Positions 15,146 to 43,661 of a stretch of 64,000 nucleotides of DNA are shown piece after piece; within the stretch, counting starts at the first letter, position 1, and each line of letters starts with the position of its first letter. The notes below the pieces were generated by a model. That model saw nothing but the letters and a program-made list of their open reading frames with translations, did not search any database and was not told where the DNA came from. The DNA is from Terriglobus sp. RCC_193 (GTDB lineage: Bacteria > Acidobacteriota > Terriglobia > Terriglobales > Acidobacteriaceae), in the NCBI RefSeq assembly GCF_041355105.1, contig NZ_JBFUPK010000001.1:1116001-1180000 (forward strand), read 5' to 3'. The position numbers were made by a program, and so were the translations under genes.

Positions 15146-15166
15146 GTAACCCAAACCAAATGAGTA

Positions 15167-15202
15167 CCCCACATCTCGCTTCTGAGATGTGGGGTTTCTT
15201 CT
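15167..15202 (+). terminator. Palindromic repeat copy acting as terminator after nuoD
   Basis: CCCCACATCTC (15167-15177) and GAGATGTGGGG (15184-15194) form a perfect 11-bp stem around GCTTCT, then TTTCTTCTTG. Almost the same palindrome recurs between atpB and atpE (35927-35961) and inside lysS (38662-38696), so this is a member of a repeat family that here has a terminator-like T-run. Confidence 0.7.
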
Positions 15203-35485: not shown

Positions 35486-35791
35486 TTACTGAACCTTGAG
35501 GAAGATGATCACGAACGTGAACAGAGCCAGCGATTCAATGAAGGCCAGGCCCAGGATGAGGAACGTGAAGATCGCCGGACGTGCGCCGGGATTGCGTGCA
35601 ACAGCCTCAGCCGCCGAAGCGGTCGCCTTGCCCTGTGCCAGGCCGCAAAGACCAGCAGCCAGAGCCATGCCGATACCGGCAGCAATGTAGAGCAGGCCCT
35701 TCGACGATGCATCAGCACCCGTCTGCGCGAACACTGGCGATGCGATCAGCAACGTGGCCAGCGTCATAAATACATACTTCATAACCTTCAT
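35486..35791 (-). CDS. atpE: F0F1 ATP synthase subunit c with N-terminal extension
   Basis: The rotor-ring subunit, 101 residues, longer than the usual 70-90 because of an N-terminal segment (MKYVFMTLATLLIASPVFAQ) that looks like a cleavable signal peptide. Helix 1 is KGLLYIAAGIGMALAAGLCG with Q53, the loop ARNPGARP follows, and helix 2 has the ion-binding E86 followed by S87 (FIESLALF). Q-plus-ES is part of the sodium-binding pattern, but the Thr and Tyr of true sodium rings are Leu and Phe, so proton use is more likely. Last gene of the F0 cluster. Confidence 0.92.
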   Translation of the reverse strand: MKVMKYVFMTLATLLIASPVFAQTGADASSKGLLYIAAGIGMALAAGLCGLAQGKATASAAEAVARNPGARPAIFTFLILGLAFIESLALFTFVIIFLKVQ

Positions 35792-35926
35792 GGTCGTACT
35801 CCAATGCCCCCAAAATGCCAGAACAGTAGGTGGTTGAGGTTCACCGTGCTGACCCCCTCACACTCTTCTGGTTGCTGCGCCTTGAACAGCAGAGGCATCG
35901 CTGTCCAAGTCAAACTTCCCGCCGAA

Positions 35927-35961
35927 GCGGGTGCCCCACATCTCGCTTCTGAGATGTGGGA
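35927..35961. repeat. Palindromic repeat copy between atpB and atpE
   Basis: GCGGGTGCCCCAC followed by ATCTCGCTTCTGAGATGTGGGA: a 10-bp stem that is nearly identical to the copy after nuoD and close to the one inside lysS, which shares the GCGGGTGCCCCAC lead. In this position it could adjust the ratio of subunit c to a by attenuating or stabilising the transcript. Confidence 0.65.
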
Positions 35962-35969
35962 ACAGAATC

Positions 35970-36701
35970 CTAGTGCTCGTGGCTGACAGCCAGACTCAGG
36001 TAAATCGTCGACAGCAGCATGAACACATACGCCTGAATGATCGACACGCCAAGGTGAAGTCCCAGGAACACCAGCGGCACACCGATCGGCACCAGCGAGA
36101 AGAACGCCAGCGTCACCAGGTCACCCGCAAACATGTTCGCGTAGAGACGAACTGTCAGCGAAAGCACACGTGCGCAGTGCGAAACGATCTCGATGATGAA
36201 CATCAGCGGAGCCAGCCACCACACCGGTCCCAGGAACTGCTTGATGTAGCCAGCGCCGTTCGAGCGGATGCCGTGGTAGTGATAGTAAATAAATGTCACC
36301 AGCGCAATGCCAAGCGGCACCACCGGGTTCGACGTCGGCGACATCAGCCCCGGAATCAGTCCCAGCAGGTTCATCACCAGGATGAACAGCAACAGCACCG
36401 ACAGGTAGCCCACAAACTTTTCGTAGCCGTGGCCCACAATGCTCTCAGCCTGTCCGGAGACAAACTCGTGCACCATCTCAGCCGAATGAGCAATGCCATT
36501 CGGCTTGTCCACGCTCAGGCTTGCCCGAACCGCCACAAAGTATGCAATCAGCAGCAGACCAACGATGATCTCCATCGCGACTGCGTTTGAAATCGGGGCC
36601 TCGGGGAAGACCACCTTCACGTGCAGAGCACGCAGCAGCGCATCCACCGGACCGGCGAAATGCGCATTCAAAAATCGAGTGAAAACGAGCTGTTCCGGCA
36701 T
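35970..36701 (-). CDS. atpB: F0F1 ATP synthase subunit a
   Basis: The stator channel subunit, 243 residues with five to six helices. The essential Arg that faces the c-ring Glu is in LSLTVRLYANMFAGD, and the last helix IIQAYVFMLLSTIYLSLA has the conserved Gln and Tyr. It lies between an AtpI-like gene and atpE with a repeat element in the 178-base gap before atpE. Genes for b, delta and F1 are not in the window. Confidence 0.93.
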   Translation of the reverse strand: MPEQLVFTRFLNAHFAGPVDALLRALHVKVVFPEAPISNAVAMEIIVGLLLIAYFVAVRASLSVDKPNGIAHSAEMVHEFVSGQAESIVGHGYEKFVGYLSVLLLFILVMNLLGLIPGLMSPTSNPVVPLGIALVTFIYYHYHGIRSNGAGYIKQFLGPVWWLAPLMFIIEIVSHCARVLSLTVRLYANMFAGDLVTLAFFSLVPIGVPLVFLGLHLGVSIIQAYVFMLLSTIYLSLAVSHEH

Positions 36702-36750
36702 GATTCTTTCTTGTCGGCCTGGGCCTTTGAAAACTTGTCTGAAAACCTCG

Positions 36751-37191
36751 TTAGATCGTGCCGCTTCGCAGCAACCTCAAGCCTTCGATCGTCAGTGCAA
36801 TCACACCCATCGCAAGACCCGCTGCAAGTGCCAGCGCAGAGCCATTCAGATACTTAAGGCTAACATATAGGACGGCAACAACGGCGCATAAACGGAGAAA
36901 GAAGCCCACCAGTGCGAACCCGATCGAAGGCCTCCGTGCACCCACAATATGCTCGCCCGGCAGCGGCTCCATCTTCGCCGTCAACGCGGCCATCAGCCGC
37001 CGCCACTCCCACAATCCGCTGCCCGCAATCGCTGCGCCAATCAGTAACAATACCGCCGATTTCCAGCCGCCCTTGATCCACGCCGGCACCACACCAATGA
37101 CCGCCAGCACGGCCACGATCTTCACACTCCGCGCGATCACCGCGCGCGCATCCGCGTCCGTAAAGCTCGCGGGAATCTCTGTTGGTTCCAC
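36751..37191 (-). CDS. AtpI-like small membrane protein
   Basis: A 146-residue protein with about four hydrophobic segments (residues 23-41, 44-60, 88-108 and 118-136) in the slot where AtpI, a small assembly or Mg2+-linked helper, sits in other ATP synthase operons. Sequence similarity to AtpI is weak; the position decides the name. GTG 37191 follows the upstream stop by no gap (TAAGTG), so it is translationally coupled to the AtpZ-like gene. Confidence 0.65.
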   Translation of the reverse strand: MEPTEIPASFTDADARAVIARSVKIVAVLAVIGVVPAWIKGGWKSAVLLLIGAAIAGSGLWEWRRLMAALTAKMEPLPGEHIVGARRPSIGFALVGFFLRLCAVVAVLYVSLKYLNGSALALAAGLAMGVIALTIEGLRLLRSGTI

Positions 37192-37440
37192 TTAGTTGTT
37201 GTCCTTCATGTACTTCTGCGCGGTCTGGAAAATCTTGATAAACCCGCCAACGGCTCCAATCAGAATGCCGATTATGCCGCCATACCGCGTGCCATAGTGA
37301 TGGTCCACCAGCGATCCCAGCAGCCAACCCACCACGCACCCAATCGGCAGCGCCAGCGCAAGCTGAATCATCGTCTCAGCCTTCACCAGATCGCCCAGCG
37401 CGCCCTTCGGTTTGCCCGGAATGTTGCCGTCTCCGCTCAT
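37192..37440 (-). CDS. AtpZ/AtpI-type F0F1 assembly protein
   Basis: An 82-residue protein with two helices in a hairpin (about 24-44 and 51-70): ETMIQLALALPIGCVVGWLLG and YGGIIGILIGAVGGFIKIFQT. This matches the putative F0F1-ATPase subunit family AtpZ/AtpI, which supports c-ring assembly or Mg2+/Ca2+ transport. ATG 37440 is chosen for GGAGG five bases upstream; the longer reading from 37479 is unlikely. It is the first gene of the F0 cluster. Confidence 0.8.
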   Translation of the reverse strand: MSGDGNIPGKPKGALGDLVKAETMIQLALALPIGCVVGWLLGSLVDHHYGTRYGGIIGILIGAVGGFIKIFQTAQKYMKDNN

Positions 37441-37584
37441 CGCGACCTCCATTACATCACGCCATCGCGCTATCTCCACGACTTCAACAGCGGCTTTTGC
37501 CGAGCAGAAGGCGTGTACTTAAAATCCCAAAAGTCCTGGCGTCATGCGTTGCACACCGCTTCGTACGCCGCTACCATGTTTTCC

Positions 37585-37788
37585 ATGAGTACTGACACAC
37601 CAAAACCCACCGCACCCCGCGTCACCGGCCTCGGCCCCAAGGCGCAGAAGCTGCAGGCCCTCCGCGAAAAGCTGGAAGCCCAGAAGAACGGCGGCGGCAA
37701 GCAGAACTTCAACCTCGGCGCCACGGGCGGCGGCAAGTCCACATCTGCTGGCTTCAAGAAGACCAACTTCCAGCGCAAAGCGACTTAA
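37585..37788 (+). CDS. Small basic Gly/Lys-rich protein (67 aa)
   Basis: A 67-residue protein without hydrophobic segments: a Pro/Thr-rich start, a helix KAQKLQALREKLEAQKNGGG and a basic Gly-rich end (GGGKSTSAGFKKTNFQRKAT). The composition suggests binding to nucleic acid, but no domain is recognised. ATG 37585 or 37576 can start it. It is divergent from the F0 cluster and lies before lysS. Confidence 0.5.
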   Translation: MSTDTPKPTAPRVTGLGPKAQKLQALREKLEAQKNGGGKQNFNLGATGGGKSTSAGFKKTNFQRKAT

Positions 37789-37808
37789 CTTTTGCTCATC
37801 CGCACCTT

Positions 37809-37834
37809 GTCATTCTGAGCAAAGCGAAGAATCC
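37809..37834. repeat. Dispersed GTCATTCTGAGC-type repeat
   Basis: GTCATTCTGAGCAAAGCGAAGAATCC, a copy of the short repeat family also seen at 2018-2060 and twice at 41838-41890. It is in the gap between the small basic protein gene and lysS. Confidence 0.5.
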
Positions 37835-37971
37835 CGACGCACTCTCAACATCCACGAGTGCGTCGCGCTTTCATCCACAGCCCCAACGAACCTCAAACGC
37901 GCAGCGTTTCAAGAACGGTACGAAGTACCCGCGAAACTTTATACTGAACCTCGATAGAAAGAGGCTCACCG

Positions 37972-39957
37972 TTGTTGTTCGCATCCGACTTTGAAGAGCG
38001 CCTGTTCAAAGAGCGCCAGGAAAAACTCGACAAGATCGCCGAATTAGGCGCACAGGCAGGCTTGTCAAGGCTCGAAGCCACCTACCCCAACAGCTTCGCC
38101 TTCACCCACACCGCGCCGCAGATCATCGGCACCTACGCCGACACCACCGGCGAACTCCTCGAAGCCGACAAACCACACGTCGCCGTCGCAGGCCGCGTCA
38201 TGGCTCATCGCCGCCAGGGCAAGGCAGGCTTCGCCGTGCTGCAGAACAACGGCGCTCGCATCCAGATCTACGTCCGCAAAGACGACGTCGGCGAACCCGC
38301 CTTCGAGCTCTACAAGCTCCTCGATCTCGGCGACCACATCGGCGTCACCGGCTTCCTCTTCCGCACGCGCACCGGCGAACTCACTGTGCATGTCGAATCG
38401 CTGACGTTCCTGTCGAAAGCAATGGTCGCGCTCCCCGACAAGTTCCACGGCCTCACCGACATCGAACTCCGCTACCGCCAGCGCTACGTCGACCTCTTCA
38501 TGGACACCGGCGAAGACGCCGCCGAGCCTCCAATCAACGCAAACGAAACCACGGAACCGGGTGCCCCAGGTTCGCCGCAAGCTAACCTGGGTAATCGCGC
38601 ACAGCGCGATCCGCTTTCGGAAGGGACGAACTTCAGCCCGTCCGTCAACGACCTGCCGGGTGCGGGTGCCCCACGTCTCGATTCTGAGACATGGGATTCC
38701 ACCAACCCCGAAGCCATCGCAGCAGCCACAGCGCCCATGAAGCGCCTCCCCGCCCGCGAAGTCTTCGTCAAGCGCGCCCAGATCCTCAAGGCCCTGCGCA
38801 CCTTCTTCGATAGCCGCGGCTACATCGAAGTGGAAACACCCATGATGCAGCCTGTAGCGGGCGGCGCAGCAGCACGTCCCTTCGTCACGCATCACAACGC
38901 GCTCGACTTAGACCTCTTCCTGCGCATTGCGCCAGAGCTTTATCTGAAGCGCCTCGTCGTCGGCGGCATGGACCGCGTCTACGAGATCAATCGCAACTTC
39001 CGCAACGAAGGCATCAGCACCCAGCACAACCCCGAATTCACCATGCTGGAGTTCTACCAGGCCTACGCCAACTACCACGACCTGATGGACCTCACCGAAG
39101 AGATCATCACCTTCGTCGCGAACGAAGTGAACGGCACAACGCTCATCAACTTCCCTTTGCCAAAGGGACCCGATGCAGGCAAAGAAGTCCAGATCGACCT
39201 CGGCAAGTGGACCCGACTCTCGATGAAGGAAGCCATTGTGCGCTTTTGGGATGATCTTTTAGGTCCAGCACCAATGCTGTCCGATTTTGCATCAGAATCG
39301 GCTTTCAGAGCTTGGTACGAACGGTTCAAGTCAGACGAAACAACTCCTAATGATAAAGAGTCGCGCGATCTCCTCTTCCAAGCGTTAGCACAGCTCAAAG
39401 AGACGCAAAAAGAGCAGAATGATTGGGAACCTTCCGCATCTGAACTATCTGATCAACATGCTCGTTACACGAAGAAGTTCCAGATTGTCCTCGCAGCATC
39501 CGAAGACGTTCCATGGGGTAAAGGTGTATCCGAGGTCTTCGAAGCAGTGGCTGAGCAACACCTCATCCAGCCAACGATCATCTACGACTTCCCCCTAGCC
39601 GTCAGCCCGTTGAGCAAGGTGAAACCCAACGAACCAGACTGGACCGAGCGCTTCGAGTTCTACATCGGCGGCTTCGAAATCGGCAACGCCTTCTCCGAGT
39701 TGAACGATTCCGAAGACCAGCTCGCGCGTTTCGAAGACCAGATGGCCCAGAAGAACGCAGGTGATGACGAAGCCAACGACATGGACGAGGACTACGTTCG
39801 CGCCCTCCGCTACGGCTTGCCGCCCACCGGCGGCGAAGGCATCGGCATTGACCGCCTCACCATGCTCCTCACCGGCTCGCGCTCCATCCGCGATGTCATC
39901 CTCTTCCCCCTCCTGCGACCCGCGAAAAAAACGCAGGACAAAGAAGAAGCCAAGTAA
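37972..39957 (+). CDS. lysS: Lysyl-tRNA synthetase, enlarged by internal insertions
   Basis: Class II lysyl-tRNA synthetase, 661 residues against about 500 usually. The OB-fold anticodon domain (about 50-170) and the catalytic core are intact: motif 2 RVYEINRNFRNEG and motif 3 GEGIGIDRLTMLLTGSRSIRD. Two extra stretches stand out. One (about 180-260) splits YRQRYVDLFM from REVFVKRAQI and is encoded by palindromic repeats. The other (about 423-505) lies after KWTRLSMKEAI and is low in GC. Both stay in frame. TTG 37972 is the start, with AGAGG upstream. It is followed by a terminator. Confidence 0.92.
   Translation: MLFASDFEERLFKERQEKLDKIAELGAQAGLSRLEATYPNSFAFTHTAPQIIGTYADTTGELLEADKPHVAVAGRVMAHRRQGKAGFAVLQNNGARIQIYVRKDDVGEPAFELYKLLDLGDHIGVTGFLFRTRTGELTVHVESLTFLSKAMVALPDKFHGLTDIELRYRQRYVDLFMDTGEDAAEPPINANETTEPGAPGSPQANLGNRAQRDPLSEGTNFSPSVNDLPGAGAPRLDSETWDSTNPEAIAAATAPMKRLPAREVFVKRAQILKALRTFFDSRGYIEVETPMMQPVAGGAAARPFVTHHNALDLDLFLRIAPELYLKRLVVGGMDRVYEINRNFRNEGISTQHNPEFTMLEFYQAYANYHDLMDLTEEIITFVANEVNGTTLINFPLPKGPDAGKEVQIDLGKWTRLSMKEAIVRFWDDLLGPAPMLSDFASESAFRAWYERFKSDETTPNDKESRDLLFQALAQLKETQKEQNDWEPSASELSDQHARYTKKFQIVLAASEDVPWGKGVSEVFEAVAEQHLIQPTIIYDFPLAVSPLSKVKPNEPDWTERFEFYIGGFEIGNAFSELNDSEDQLARFEDQMAQKNAGDDEANDMDEDYVRALRYGLPPTGGEGIGIDRLTMLLTGSRSIRDVILFPLLRPAKKTQDKEEAK
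38508..38755 (+). repeat. In-frame repeat insertion inside lysS
   Basis: Two repeat elements are embedded in the coding sequence. 38551-38625 (GGAACCGGGTGCCCCAGG..., with CCAGGTT/AACCTGG arms) matches, in reverse direction, the intergenic copy at 41716-41789. 38662-38696 (GCGGGTGCCCCAC..., arms around GATTCT) matches the copies at 35927-35961 and 15167-15194. Together they encode about 80 extra residues of Pro/Gly/Asn-rich, probably loop-forming sequence. Confidence 0.75.
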
Positions 39958-39970
39958 CCAGCCCCAAAAC

Positions 39971-40000
39971 GAAACGGCCTCACAAGAGGCCGTTTCCTGT
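39971..40000 (+). terminator. Terminator of lysS
   Basis: GAAACGGCCTC (39971-39981) and GAGGCCGTTTC (39986-39996) form an 11-bp stem with an ACAA loop, followed by CTGTTT. It lies 13 bases after the lysS stop; the A-run before it could also serve minus-strand transcripts ending cobA. Confidence 0.8.
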
Positions 40001-40090
40001 TTCCAATTCGCAGATGGAACTCATGCCACGTTCTATTCGCGAAGCGTCGAAGCGGAAGAATCTCAACACTTCACTTGACCAAAGCTTCAC

Positions 40091-40891
40091 TTAGGACGAC
40101 GGCGTTTGCGCGAGTGTCGATACCGCCGTGTCGAGTAGGCGTCGTGACTCGGGGTCCTGTTTACCTTGCAGCATCGGGCTCATAGCTCGACCAATGAGGA
40201 TAAGCAGCGGGGCGTGGCCCGGTTGCAGGTTGCCGAAATCTCCGAGGGTTGCCGCAACGGCCGTTTGCTGCGATGTGGCGGCCGAAGAGATTGCCACACA
40301 TGGCATGTCCGCGGGGACGCCGTGCTTGCTCAGGTCTTCAGCAAGGGTTTTCAGATTGCGACCCGGCATATAGATGGCCAGCGTTGCGTCCTCTGGCAAT
40401 GGGCCTTGCCACATGGGCGGCGGATTCGTCTTGTCTGCCGCGTGCGAACCGCTGATCAGGATCAGTTTGGAGGCGCTGCGGCGGTCTGTCAGCGGGAGTT
40501 GCAGTGTGGCTCCTGCAGCGAAGACTGCGGAGACTCCGGGGATGACTTCTACCGGGATGTTCGCTTCGCGGAGCGCGTTCAGTTCTTCTGCGGCGCGACC
40601 AAAGACAAGCGGGTCCCCACTCTTGAGACGCACGACGCTGAGGTTGCGGCGTGCGGAGTCGATCATGAGTTCGTGAATGCCTGCCTGCGTGATACGGGGA
40701 CGTCCGCAGCGCTTGCCAACGCTGGTGATGAGCGCGCTCGGGTGGGCGAGGGCGACGATGGCTTCGGGGACGAGGTCGTCGTGGAGGACAACATCCGCGG
40801 TGGCGAGAAGGCGTGCCGCTTTGAGCGTGAGAAGATCGGGGTCGCCCGGGCCTGCTCCTACGAGATAGACTGTTCCCTTTTGTGCGCTCAT
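40091..40891 (-). CDS. cobA: Uroporphyrinogen-III C-methyltransferase
   Basis: SAM-dependent enzyme of 266 residues that methylates uroporphyrinogen III twice to precorrin-2, the branch point to siroheme and B12. GTVYLVGAGPGDPDLLTLKA is the family start; VVRLKSGDPLVFGRAAEEL and VIPGVSAVFAAGATLQLPLTDR follow. ATG 40891 overlaps the stop of the upstream dehydrogenase gene (ATGA), so the two form the split equivalent of CysG. The frame further upstream is the other gene's shadow. The product feeds the siroheme reductase encoded next upstream. Confidence 0.93.
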   Translation of the reverse strand: MSAQKGTVYLVGAGPGDPDLLTLKAARLLATADVVLHDDLVPEAIVALAHPSALITSVGKRCGRPRITQAGIHELMIDSARRNLSVVRLKSGDPLVFGRAAEELNALREANIPVEVIPGVSAVFAAGATLQLPLTDRRSASKLILISGSHAADKTNPPPMWQGPLPEDATLAIYMPGRNLKTLAEDLSKHGVPADMPCVAISSAATSQQTAVAATLGDFGNLQPGHAPLLILIGRAMSPMLQGKQDPESRRLLDTAVSTLAQTPSS

Positions 40892-41529
40892 CGGGATGCC
40901 TCTGCAGGGTAATGTTCGCGGGCGTGCTGTCTTGCGATCTGGCGGGAGGGGCAGGCTTCGGCTCCGCAGACTTCGCGCTGTGCAAGCTGATGCAGAAGTT
41001 GTTTGCGCGGTTCGCCGAGAGGCTCCATCTGCAGGACTTCGCGGCGCAAGCGTCCGAGTTCTTCCAGCCACGGGCCAATATCGTGCGGCAGCGCTTCGTT
41101 CAATGCTTTGCGAAGCTGCATGGCATACGCGGGGCTTTCCCCCGCGGTGGAGATGGCGATCTGGAGATCGCCTCGGCGCACGATGGATGGAAAGAAGAAG
41201 TCGCAGTAGGGTGGGTCGTCGACCGCGTTGACGAGGATGCCGCGGGCTTGTGCTCCGGCGAAGACAGCGCGGTTGACCTCAGGGACGTCGGTTCCGGCTA
41301 CGGCCAGGTACATGCCTTCGAGATCGTTGTCTTCGAAGGGGCGAAGGTGGAGGGTGATTTCTCCGGATTCGGCCTGTTGCTGGACCTTGGATGAGGCTCG
41401 GGTGGCAACGACGGTGACTTGGGCCTCGGCGTCGAGGAGGGATTGGATTTTGGATTCCGCAATCGATCCTGCGCCGACGACGAGGCATGGGCGGTTGGTG
41501 AGTTTCAGGAAGATTGGGAAGAGTGACAT
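40888..41529 (-). CDS. Precorrin-2 dehydrogenase / sirohydrochlorin ferrochelatase
   Basis: A 213-residue protein equivalent to the N-terminal part of CysG (or Met8/SirC): it oxidises precorrin-2 with NAD and may insert iron to make siroheme. FPIFLKLTNRPCLVVGAGSIAESKIQSLL is the Rossmann dinucleotide site (here G-A-G-S-I-A), with NAVDDPPYCDFFFPSIVRRGDLQIAISTAGESPA in the middle. The last 25 residues are rich in Cys/His and not typical. It overlaps cobA by four bases. Confidence 0.9.
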   Translation of the reverse strand: MSLFPIFLKLTNRPCLVVGAGSIAESKIQSLLDAEAQVTVVATRASSKVQQQAESGEITLHLRPFEDNDLEGMYLAVAGTDVPEVNRAVFAGAQARGILVNAVDDPPYCDFFFPSIVRRGDLQIAISTAGESPAYAMQLRKALNEALPHDIGPWLEELGRLRREVLQMEPLGEPRKQLLHQLAQREVCGAEACPSRQIARQHAREHYPAEASR

Positions 41530-41909
41530 GAGTGGTTTCCTTGGGCCTGTCGAGCGGGCTTTCAGCCCTCTGGTGGCTGTTGGGACCGGAACCTGGGCCT
41601 TCGGCCTGGGCTAAGATGTCGGCGCGCCTTTGGCGCTTAATGCTTTCGGCAAGGCTACTGCCCTGCCTTTCCTTTTAGAGTTCCATCTACTGAGCGCTCC
41701 ATCTTCGCCAGAGCCTACCGCTTCGAAAATGGTTCGTGCTTTGCGCGAATGCCCAGGCTAGCTTCGCGAACCTTGGCACCCCGGTTCCGTTCCTGACCCC
41801 AGAGCAGTCGTAGGTTTCAGAGCTCTTCGGGGTTCTTCGCTTTGCTCAGAATGACGGCTCACCTGAACCAGTCATCCTGAGCAAAGCAACACAACTTCCT
41901 GAGACAACG
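41530..41909. repeat. Intergenic stretch packed with short palindromes
   Basis: No gene is seen in these 380 bases. They contain AGCGGGCTTTCAGCCCT, GGGCCTTCGGCCTGGG and GCGCCTTTGGCGC palindromes; an inverted copy of the CCAGGTT/AACCTGG element (41716-41789) that also occurs in lysS; and two facing copies of the CATTCTGAGC-type repeat (41838-41890). The gap separates the reductase gene from the siroheme genes on the same strand. Confidence 0.65.
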
Positions 41910-43661
41910 TTACATCTTCGCAGGTGGGCGACCGCTGCGCTTGTCGCGTTCGGCGGCGGCGACTACTGCGCCTGCAAGTTGGCCGCGCAGCTCTTCGTCA
42001 GAGAAGCGGGCAAAGTATTGGCGGAGGTTTTCGTTCGGCGTCCGGTGGCTAAGATAGGTTTTCAGCAGACGCTCCATAGCAACCGGAACCTCCGTTGCCG
42101 GGGCACGGTAGCCGATGGCGCGCGCAAAGCCGGCGTGTTCGCCGAGGGCACCCCCCAGGCAGAAGTAGAATGCATCGACCATCTGGCCTTCATGCTTGAC
42201 CTTCTTGCCTTCGAGACCGATGTCGGCGATCCACGCCTGGCCGCAGTTGTTGGGGCAGCCGGTGACATTGATGCGGAGCTGCTGGTCGAAGTTGGGGACA
42301 CGCTCCTCCATCTCGTCGACTAGCCAGCGGGAGAAGCTCTTGGTTTCTGCAATGGCGAGTTTGCAGAACTCCGTGCCGGTGCACGCGACGGTGCCACGCC
42401 AGAAGTTGGTGGCTTCGACATGCAGTCCGAGTGCATTGATTTTCTCAACCAATGCTTGAATTTTTTCATTGGAAACGCTGGTAATAATGGCGTTCTGCTG
42501 AATCGTCAGGCTGAGTTTGCCGTCGCCGTATGCATCAGCGAGGTCAGCCAGGGCATGAAGCTGGGCAGCATCCATACGGCCACGAAGAACTGTGATGCCG
42601 ACAGAGGAGAGGCCCGGCTGCTGTTGCGGGATGACGCCGGTGTGATCGCGGTAGATGTCGGATGGGACGACTTCCGCGGGCGCCGGGTCCAGCTTATAGC
42701 CGAGTTTGCGCTCCAGTTCCGCGAGGAAGGTTTCGGCGGTCCAGCCGTCCTTCATGAACATGTACTTCAGGCGGGCGGTCATGCGGTTTTCGCGCAGAGT
42801 CCCCTGCTGGTCGCGGTAGATCTCGGCGATCTTGTAGCAGACGTCTTCCGCCTGATCGGGCTTGACGAAGGCGTTGAGGCGTAGGGCGAGATGCGGCTCC
42901 TTGGAGAGGCCACCGCCAACACGCACGGCGTAACCGACTTCACGGACGCCGTTGATGGTGCGCTCGACGCCGGTGAGGCCAATGTCGTTGATCTCCGGGT
43001 AAGAGCACCATTCGGGGCAGCCCGTGACAGTGATCTTGAACTTGCGCGGCAGGTTGACGAAATCCGGGTGGCCAGTGAGGAAGGCAGCGACCTTCTTTGC
43101 CAACGGTGCGGCGTCAATGAGCTCGTGCTTGTGCAGGCCTGCGAGGGGGCAGCCAGTGACGTTACGGACGACGTCGCCGCAGGCTCCCTTGGGTGAGAGG
43201 CCGACCTTGGCAAGCGCATCGACGATGATGGGCAGCGACTCGATGGTGAGCCAGTGATACTGAATGTTCTGGCGGGTGGTGATGTCAGCAAGGTCGCGAC
43301 CGTGATCGCGCGCGAGGTCGGCGAGGACACGAGTCTGTTCGCTGGTGAGAATGCCGTTAGGAATGCCAACGCGCATCATGAAGAATTCCGTGGCCTTGCC
43401 TTCGCCACCCACGCCGCCTACGGCACCAATGCCGTCGCCCTGCGTGTAAATGCCCCACCACTTGAAGTAAGCGCCAGCCCAGTCGGGCACGACGGATTCA
43501 CGGCCTTCTTTCGCGAAGGCGACAACCTCATCCCAGTGCTCCCAGGGGTTCTTTTCAACCTTGAGGCGCTCCATCTTCTGCGCCTTCGTCTCTTTCTTTT
43601 CGACGGCGGGCTTTGCTGGGGCTACGGTCTGCGTGGTGTTGCTCTGGACTTCGTCTACCAT
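41910..43661 (-). CDS. Siroheme nitrite/sulfite reductase (ferredoxin-type)
   Basis: A 583-residue hemoprotein that reduces sulfite to sulfide or nitrite to ammonia with six electrons. Two ferredoxin-like half domains and two 4Fe-4S/siroheme domains are present. The cluster ligands lie in ACTGTEFCKLA (C-x5-C, near residue 425) and NVTGCPNNCGQAW (C-x3-C); the first half repeats the pattern as NVTGCPLAGL and VTGCPEWCSYPE. An N-terminal Lys/Ala-rich tail of about 35 residues is extra. Siroheme genes follow downstream on the same strand. Sulfite versus nitrite cannot be decided from sequence alone. Confidence 0.9.
   Translation of the reverse strand: MVDEVQSNTTQTVAPAKPAVEKKETKAQKMERLKVEKNPWEHWDEVVAFAKEGRESVVPDWAGAYFKWWGIYTQGDGIGAVGGVGGEGKATEFFMMRVGIPNGILTSEQTRVLADLARDHGRDLADITTRQNIQYHWLTIESLPIIVDALAKVGLSPKGACGDVVRNVTGCPLAGLHKHELIDAAPLAKKVAAFLTGHPDFVNLPRKFKITVTGCPEWCSYPEINDIGLTGVERTINGVREVGYAVRVGGGLSKEPHLALRLNAFVKPDQAEDVCYKIAEIYRDQQGTLRENRMTARLKYMFMKDGWTAETFLAELERKLGYKLDPAPAEVVPSDIYRDHTGVIPQQQPGLSSVGITVLRGRMDAAQLHALADLADAYGDGKLSLTIQQNAIITSVSNEKIQALVEKINALGLHVEATNFWRGTVACTGTEFCKLAIAETKSFSRWLVDEMEERVPNFDQQLRINVTGCPNNCGQAWIADIGLEGKKVKHEGQMVDAFYFCLGGALGEHAGFARAIGYRAPATEVPVAMERLLKTYLSHRTPNENLRQYFARFSDEELRGQLAGAVVAAAERDKRSGRPPAKM

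Follow-up and report, generated by a model that had tools for sequence, protein, structure and literature searches.

A lysS insert of Terriglobus sp. RCC_193 is very probably a block of REP-like palindromes captured in frame

How does a lysine--tRNA ligase gene come to contain, in frame, DNA that elsewhere lies between genes? The lysS gene of Terriglobus sp. RCC_193 (Acidobacteriota; assembly GCF_041355105.1) raises this question. It lies in a stretch of 64,000 nucleotides (contig NZ_JBFUPK010000001.1, positions 1,116,001 to 1,180,000), hereafter called the window. Its product matches the family profile TIGR00499 with 587 bits (cut-off, 427.6). A sequence-only reading had proposed that the protein is about 160 residues too long and that one extra stretch consists of two intergenic palindromic repeats. 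Our analysis indicates that the insert is very probably a block of intergenic palindromes resembling repetitive extragenic palindromic (REP) elements, captured in frame after this genome (G000) split from its sisters G005 and G008. In what follows, G003 to G018 denote other genomes of the genus and L numbers denote fetched loci.

The length of the LysS linker, counted from FMD to REV between RYRQRYVDL and FVKRAQ, could be measured in 17 of 19 genus genomes (G013 and G015 yielded no LysS ortholog), as well as in 68 of the 80 other loci, the remaining 12 lacking an anchor. It equals 89 residues in G000, 41 in G003, G004, G005, G006, and G008, 24 to 67 in most remaining genus members, and 9 in G010. 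Nine residues is also the length in 63 of the 68 other loci (exceptions: L045, L046, L050, L051, and L089), and Escherichia coli LysU has 3 residues at this site, between both aligned stretches. What is new in G000 lysS amounts to 48 codons (144 nt), missing in all 16 same-genus relatives and in the 68 other loci; the remainder of the linker is older and common to relatives. The insert is real, sits where it had been placed, and keeps the reading frame. Of the reported excess length, only these 48 residues are new here. A second long variable stretch (39247-39585; 109 residues between MKEAI and IQPT) explains the remainder; it spans 50 to 61 residues in many other loci, reaches a maximum of 129 in L047, and, read by eye, holds no copy of the elements found in the lysS insert. 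A rival reading takes the insert as a functional LysS domain under selection, its likeness to repeats being secondary; in its favor, all of this part of the genus has a long, acidic host linker. However, the absence of the insert from all LysS sequences compared, its varying presence among sister species, and the identity of its DNA with intergenic repeat DNA make this very unlikely.

The captured block comprises, in order, a leader (CAACGCAAACGAAACCACGGAACC), a type A palindrome, hairpin 2, a relative of hairpin 3, and a type B palindrome (Table 1). Both repeats of the sequence-only reading are therefore present, but two more hairpins stand between them, and part of the stretch it described is older shared linker. 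Types A and B have the lead GGGTGCCCCA in common and share the same orientation within lysS. The type B copy retains 9 of 10 stem pairs, a G-T pair included, and translates as GAPRLDSETWD. The same modules adjoin one another in intergenic DNA elsewhere, and the leader recurs in the intergenic locus L126. When queried against a phage sequence set, positions 38530-38705 gave no match, and a phage-derived element was rejected.

The composite nature of the block could also reflect recombination or template switching at shared palindromes, by which an intergenic mosaic was pasted into the linker, while the transposase made only the intergenic population. The leader (CAACGCAAA..GAAACCACGGAACC) matches L126 with 90% identity over query positions 11-85, several unrelated palindromes appear in lysS mostly in the order seen between genes, and approximately 24 nt of the old linker seem to have been replaced. 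However, no donor with all four modules in the lysS order was found among 52 matches (40 of 166 candidates scored), and in-gene copies elsewhere are often single B elements. We regard this route as a serious contender, although with somewhat less than an even chance.

The reading frame through type A is informative. In the lysS frame, the type A consensus (GGT GCC CCA GGT TCG CGA AGC TAA) runs into a TAA. The lysS copy reads CGCCGCAAGC, with two extra nucleotides in the loop, whereas the 41 other copies read (42 in total) lack the insertion. The lysS frame stays open because this insertion shifts the TAA out of frame, which favors translation over bypass or splicing. Removal of the insert at the RNA or protein level, or its bypass by the ribosome, would leave it in the DNA and not in the protein; the hairpins are strong, and bypassed hairpin elements within genes are known elsewhere. 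Yet loss of the in-frame TAA would be needless under bypass or splicing, and every ortholog insert inspected avoids stops and keeps frame. In addition, no intein or intron was found, and Rfam gave nothing at gathering score in 35500-42500, which also led us to reject a known RNA family. We consider absence from the protein extremely improbable.

Genome-wide covariance searches showed that both elements are multicopy. The counts are lower bounds, as 150 of 2177 candidates were scored with the B model and 150 of 2795 with the A model. Type B (36 nt) has at least 33 copies in G000 at E <= 0.001 and occurs in all 19 genus genomes, with at least 1 to at least 72 copies each; at E <= 1e-6 it was found in 32 of 100 sampled genomes of the family (25 of 71 genera). 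Type A (35 nt) yields at least 131 matches in G000 at E <= 0.01, a total that includes at least one B cross-hit. The stems pair almost perfectly, and variation among copies takes the form of paired changes (covariation). The type B loop depends on the species: GATTCT is the commonest subtype in G000 (15 of 31), and GCTTCT accounts for 25 of 46 copies scanned in G004, where some loci overlap. In G000, GGTGCCCCA-N8..38-TGGGA matches exactly at 14 sites, against none for the reversed pattern, which exceeds chance. On its own, and allowing one mismatch, the short lead GGTGCCCCA shows no enrichment in the window (11 occurrences against 18.7 expected); the case rests on the whole palindrome. Like REPs in the general definition that we took from PMC12306157, types A and B are short, palindromic, mutually similar, and present in many copies. 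They are also mostly extragenic: 6 of 31 type B copies in G000 lie in genes, and for type A 2 of 128 are internal in addition to the lysS copy, several more N-terminal calls being uncertain. The additional window copies listed in the sequence-only reading were all recovered (Table 1).

Table 1. Features of the lysS locus and related repeats in the window
Feature	Position	Strand	Basis or remark
lysS, lysine--tRNA ligase, 661 aa, TTG start	37972..39957	+	open reading frame and family profile
Variable linker, end of RYRQRYVDLFM to REV of REVFVKRAQ	38503..38763	+	linker length comparison; limits approximate
Captured mosaic, ~168 nt where the older linker had ~24 nt, a net gain of 144 nt	38535..38703	+	ends judged by eye
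Type A palindrome, stem CCCAGGTT (38565-38572) / AACCTGGG (38584-38591)	38556..38592	+	model match
Hairpin 2, ATCGCGC-ACA-GCGCGAT	38594..38610	+	by eye; comes after type A elsewhere
Hairpin 3, TTTCGGAAGGG...CCCGTCC family, short stem GGACG/CGTCC	38615..38645	+	family found around Y1 gene L157
Type B palindrome, stem CCCACGTCTC (38670-38679) / GAGACATGGG (38686-38695)	38663..38698	+	model match
Intergenic type B between two minus-strand genes	35928..35963	+	model match
Type B, changed lead GAGTACCCCAC, 2 mismatches to consensus	15164..15193	+	mismatch scan
Intergenic type A, diverged, followed by hairpin 2-like sequence	41751..41785	-	model match
Family C, third repeat family (GTCATTCTGAGC..GAAGAATC)	37809-37848, 41816-41855, 41871-41887		window copies

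G000 carries five Y1_Tnp genes. One of these (C2:1662422), whose product contains an HIH motif and YLHRNP, is flanked by an inverted type B pair (L013, 931-962 and 1502-1533). By eye, a second (C2:17557) lies between inverted elements of the hairpin 3 family, a third (C1:619855) is flanked on each side by a related element, and a fourth (C1:1548259) is accompanied by another palindrome, CCTAGGCC..; no flanking palindrome was seen, again by eye, beside the fifth. From the flanking REPs and the motif, we label these genes as those of REP-associated tyrosine transposases (RAYTs). Inverted copies around a Y1 gene, as in RAYT-associated REPs, are thus present for type B and for the hairpin 3 family. 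We regard the lysS elements as REP-like and captured in frame because of their many copies and the inverted pairs flanking Y1 genes. Since the lead is GGGTGCCCC, the elements were left outside the GTAG and CGTC superfamilies. The palindromes themselves appear non-autonomous; Y1/RAYT-like transposases bracketed by type B or by the hairpin 3 family probably move them as single strands.

In-frame copies are not restricted to lysS. Among the 31 type B copies analyzed in G000, in-gene copies occur in lysS, polA (between exonuclease domains), glmS, hisC (twice), and hisB. Around the his genes, five B copies lie within 4 kb (C3:129173-133118; L206, C3:126500-136000), three of them in frame in hisC and hisB. 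By the coding-potential rule, internal type A copies are found, besides lysS, in the genes for QueA and RimO, and the RimO insert of approximately 150 residues (L205:2928-4838) combines a type A element with pieces of family C and hairpin 3. Sister species have in-frame copies in MnmG, PolA, GlmS, PcrA, MurF, RNase R, ClpB, and UbiE. Several genus members carry family C translations (RPERSEVEGP, GHSERSQESP, and VILSEAKDP), likewise in frame, in HisC, PolA, and GlmS. Gene names derive from NCBIfam, and the family models match both sides of the inserts; HisC, PcrA, RNase R, and the TesA-like protein discussed below score under the cut-off of their best family, PcrA and RNase R being clipped by the ends of the fetched stretches. 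The LysS alignment, the genome-wide copies, and these further in-gene copies agree with the original proposal of intergenic repeats captured in frame. Of the two findings that the sequence-only reading named as counting against it, conservation of the insert in distant LysS and a lack of further genomic copies, neither was obtained. To judge from the encoded sequences, these enzymes probably carry extra stretches derived from mobile DNA.

The timing of capture was examined on a tree of LysS, PolA, GlmS, and HisC, ((G016,G017),((G000,(G005,G008)),(G013,(G004,G006)))), with support >=0.99, and with ortholog alignments covering 18 to 19 genomes. The G000 inserts in lysS, polA, glmS, the middle of hisC, and hisB are all absent in the sisters G005 and G008. 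The HisC middle loop contains family C plus type B in G000, GAPYTREAGVW in G006, and family C in G013, G016, and G017, and it is empty in G005, G008, and about ten others. In the GlmS loop, G000 and G017 have type B, G006 has hairpin 3 material, and G016 has several repeats; type B occupies differing positions of PolA in G000, G004, and G013. At one and the same loop, sisters thus have a different element or none (HisC, GlmS, PolA, HisB), which points to recurrent capture. The N-terminal type B of HisC, present in G000, G004, G006, G013, G016, and G017 and absent in G005 and G008, was therefore lost in the latter or gained more than once. HisC of G006, and likewise HisB and MnmG of G004, hold in frame a further palindrome that is read as GAPYTREAGVW or GAPYIRKADVW (L215, L216, and L327).

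Five of the six frames of type B are open, and one sense frame contains a TGA. We surveyed 144 B copies from nine genomes, taking the best-scoring of those listed (G000, 31/33; G004, 41/72; G006, 14/29; G013, 33/51; G016, 10/39; G017, 7/20; G005, 3/5; G008, 2/6; G018, 3/14). N- and C-terminal copies were excluded from the internal count, and the coding-potential rule detects in-frame copies only, frame-breaking hits lying outside it. Fourteen copies proved internal and in frame, using two of the five open frames. Eleven follow the sense frame GAP[HR]LxSE[TM]W (G000 LysS, PolA, GlmS, and HisC; G004 MnmG and PolA; G013 PolA; G016 MurF; G017 GlmS, PcrA, and a TesA-like protein), and three follow the antisense frame SHVSE..GAP (G013 UbiE; G016 RNase R and ClpB). 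The probability of at least 11 of 14 in one frame is <=2.0e-5, assuming equal frames and independent events, the latter being a doubtful assumption for the two cases in GlmS and the three in PolA. A first, stricter rule recovered 2 of 31 G000 B copies and missed lysS and hisC, where composite inserts adjoin; it was loosened post hoc. An earlier claim that a single sense frame is used (9/9 in a smaller survey) was withdrawn when G013, G016, and more of G017 added the three antisense copies. Among the excluded copies are a C-terminal type B in YbeY of G006, in another sense frame (RVPHVSTLRRG), and an uncertain antisense N-terminal copy in L354. The comparison of in-gene fractions between B and A (p = 0.0019) is not relied on, as N-terminal copies were counted for B only.

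Full stem pairing (10/10) is found in 12 of 14 in-gene B copies inspected and 9 pairs in the other two. In addition, at the HisC N terminus of G013 (L211), the stem changed on both sides from CTC/GAG to ATC/GAT, altering two residues of the peptide (GAPRIDSDTW) and keeping the pairing. Such conservation would be expected if the palindrome served an RNA or DNA function within genes (mRNA structure or protein binding) and its peptide were only tolerated. However, intergenic copies are equally paired, presence varies among sisters, and the same look would result from recent insertion or from repeated conversion by other copies. We consider this explanation unlikely.

Several observations weigh against the reading of the lysS insert as REP-like elements moved and captured in frame. 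As the insert is found in one genome only, an assembly error is formally conceivable. Type A flanks none of the five Y1 genes in G000, these elements lack the GT(A/G)G head that RAYT REPs are reported to have, and no target-site duplication was established. The intergenic leader may mark a recombination copy of a longer stretch, not a single REP move. The three antisense copies depart from the prevailing frame. The AlphaFold2 model of LysS is weak: built from a 33-row alignment, it has a mean predicted local distance difference test (pLDDT) score of 72, with values below 50 at residues 158-240, which cover the insert (about 189-244) plus conserved residues ahead of it, and likewise at 290-319 and 342-355. 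Because these other residues also score low, disorder of the insert is plausible and not proven.

On balance, in-frame capture of REP-like elements remains our preferred reading. The entry site would be an already length-variable, acidic linker that joins the anticodon-binding part of LysRS to its first catalytic helix. Insertions would persist only when they fall in a tolerant loop, lack a stop, and have a length divisible by three, remaining gene hits being lost; the extra peptide might then be neutral. The same filter could account for the copies in PolA, GlmS, HisC, HisB, QueA, RimO, MnmG, PcrA, MurF, RNase R, ClpB, and UbiE. A bolder extension, which we hold to be rather doubtful, is that REP capture acts as a standing engine of protein change throughout this genus. 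Each palindrome would encode two things at once, a transposase hairpin and a harmless peptide, read as GAPRLDSETW in the sense and as SHVSESRRGAP in the antisense direction. Genes would serve as a refuge for the palindromes, and enzymes of replication, translation, and wall synthesis would keep being remodeled at the same loops.

REP-like palindromes inside genes are already known. The sections of PMC3733652 consulted describe intragenic REPs of the GTAG and CGTC superfamilies in Opitutus terrae, Rickettsia conorii, Thauera, Xanthomonas, and others, and thus cover in-frame REPs beyond Rickettsia. Their clusters encode 43 to 82 residues, and differing REPs occur near one recB site in two Xanthomonas species. 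Our elements resemble these in being short, RAYT-associated palindromes within housekeeping genes, including those for DNA polymerase I and tRNA synthetases. However, they differ in sequence and phylum (the lead is GGTG here, in contrast to GTAG/CGTC), unrelated families are joined in one in-frame block, and their presence is mapped on a species tree of one genus. The restriction to two of five open frames is seen here, and we found no mention of it in those sections.

Rickettsia palindromic elements (RPEs), as far as described in the parts consulted of PMC10969869 and PMC2229807, are Rickettsia-specific palindromes of 105 to 150 bp, found in frame in conserved genes and also between genes. 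In-frame palindromes in conserved genes are found here too, but our units are approximately 36 nt and combine, and the nearest named LysS loci belong to Acidobacteriaceae; the two are set apart by these descriptions and not by sequence comparison. The likeness to RPEs drawn in the sequence-only reading thus holds for mechanism but, as far as tested, not for kinship, since type B is a REP belonging to one of the genome's own transposases. Inverted REP pairs around a Y1 gene and REP mosaics also recall REP doublet-forming hairpins (REPINs) and bacterial interspersed mosaic elements (BIMEs) with RAYTs (PMC2817692 and PMC6006769). Unlike the present case, where A and B in lysS share one orientation, those mosaics lie mainly outside genes. 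Granulicella aggregans appears in the REP table of PMC12306157, in the available text of which the terms searched gave no intragenic case. In the open-access literature, subscription papers and supplements being outside the search, we found no report of in-frame REPs in this phylum, and we met no description of unrelated families joined into a single in-frame block, of a two-frame restriction, or of turnover at the same loops among sisters.

In-frame capture of palindromes has been regarded as a Rickettsia curiosity and then as a list of cases. A single genus now provides a time series, in which close species differ in element, loop, and enzyme. This makes the rate of capture, the lifetime of inserts, selection on frame, and the relevance of the extra peptides measurable in free-living soil bacteria. 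It also cautions against taking such inserts for functional domains.

The orientation of the elements relative to replication was analyzed as well. In G004, where dnaA lies at the contig start, the first half has 6 strong type B copies on the plus strand and 17 on the minus strand, and the second half has 13 and 1 (p = 1.1e-4; 37 copies, two in an apparent duplication being dropped); with all 68 B copies, p = 0.0013. Type A is biased on contig 2 of G000 (p = 0.011), and G006 shows no strand bias (p = 0.46). IS200/IS605 elements are reported to insert into one template strand at the fork (PMC6006769). The bias in G004 and G000 would fit such insertion and is not seen in every genome. We rejected the idea that the sense orientation stems from a replication-strand bias, because the G004 bias is opposite if genes follow the fork and G006 has none.

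The two minus-strand genes on either side of the window copy of type B at 35928-35963 are presumably ATP synthase-like, to judge from their sequence. On contig 1 of G004, B pairs in 2.48-2.73 Mb and 2.94-3.19 Mb show a constant spacing of 460 kb, which suggests a large duplication or an assembly artifact.
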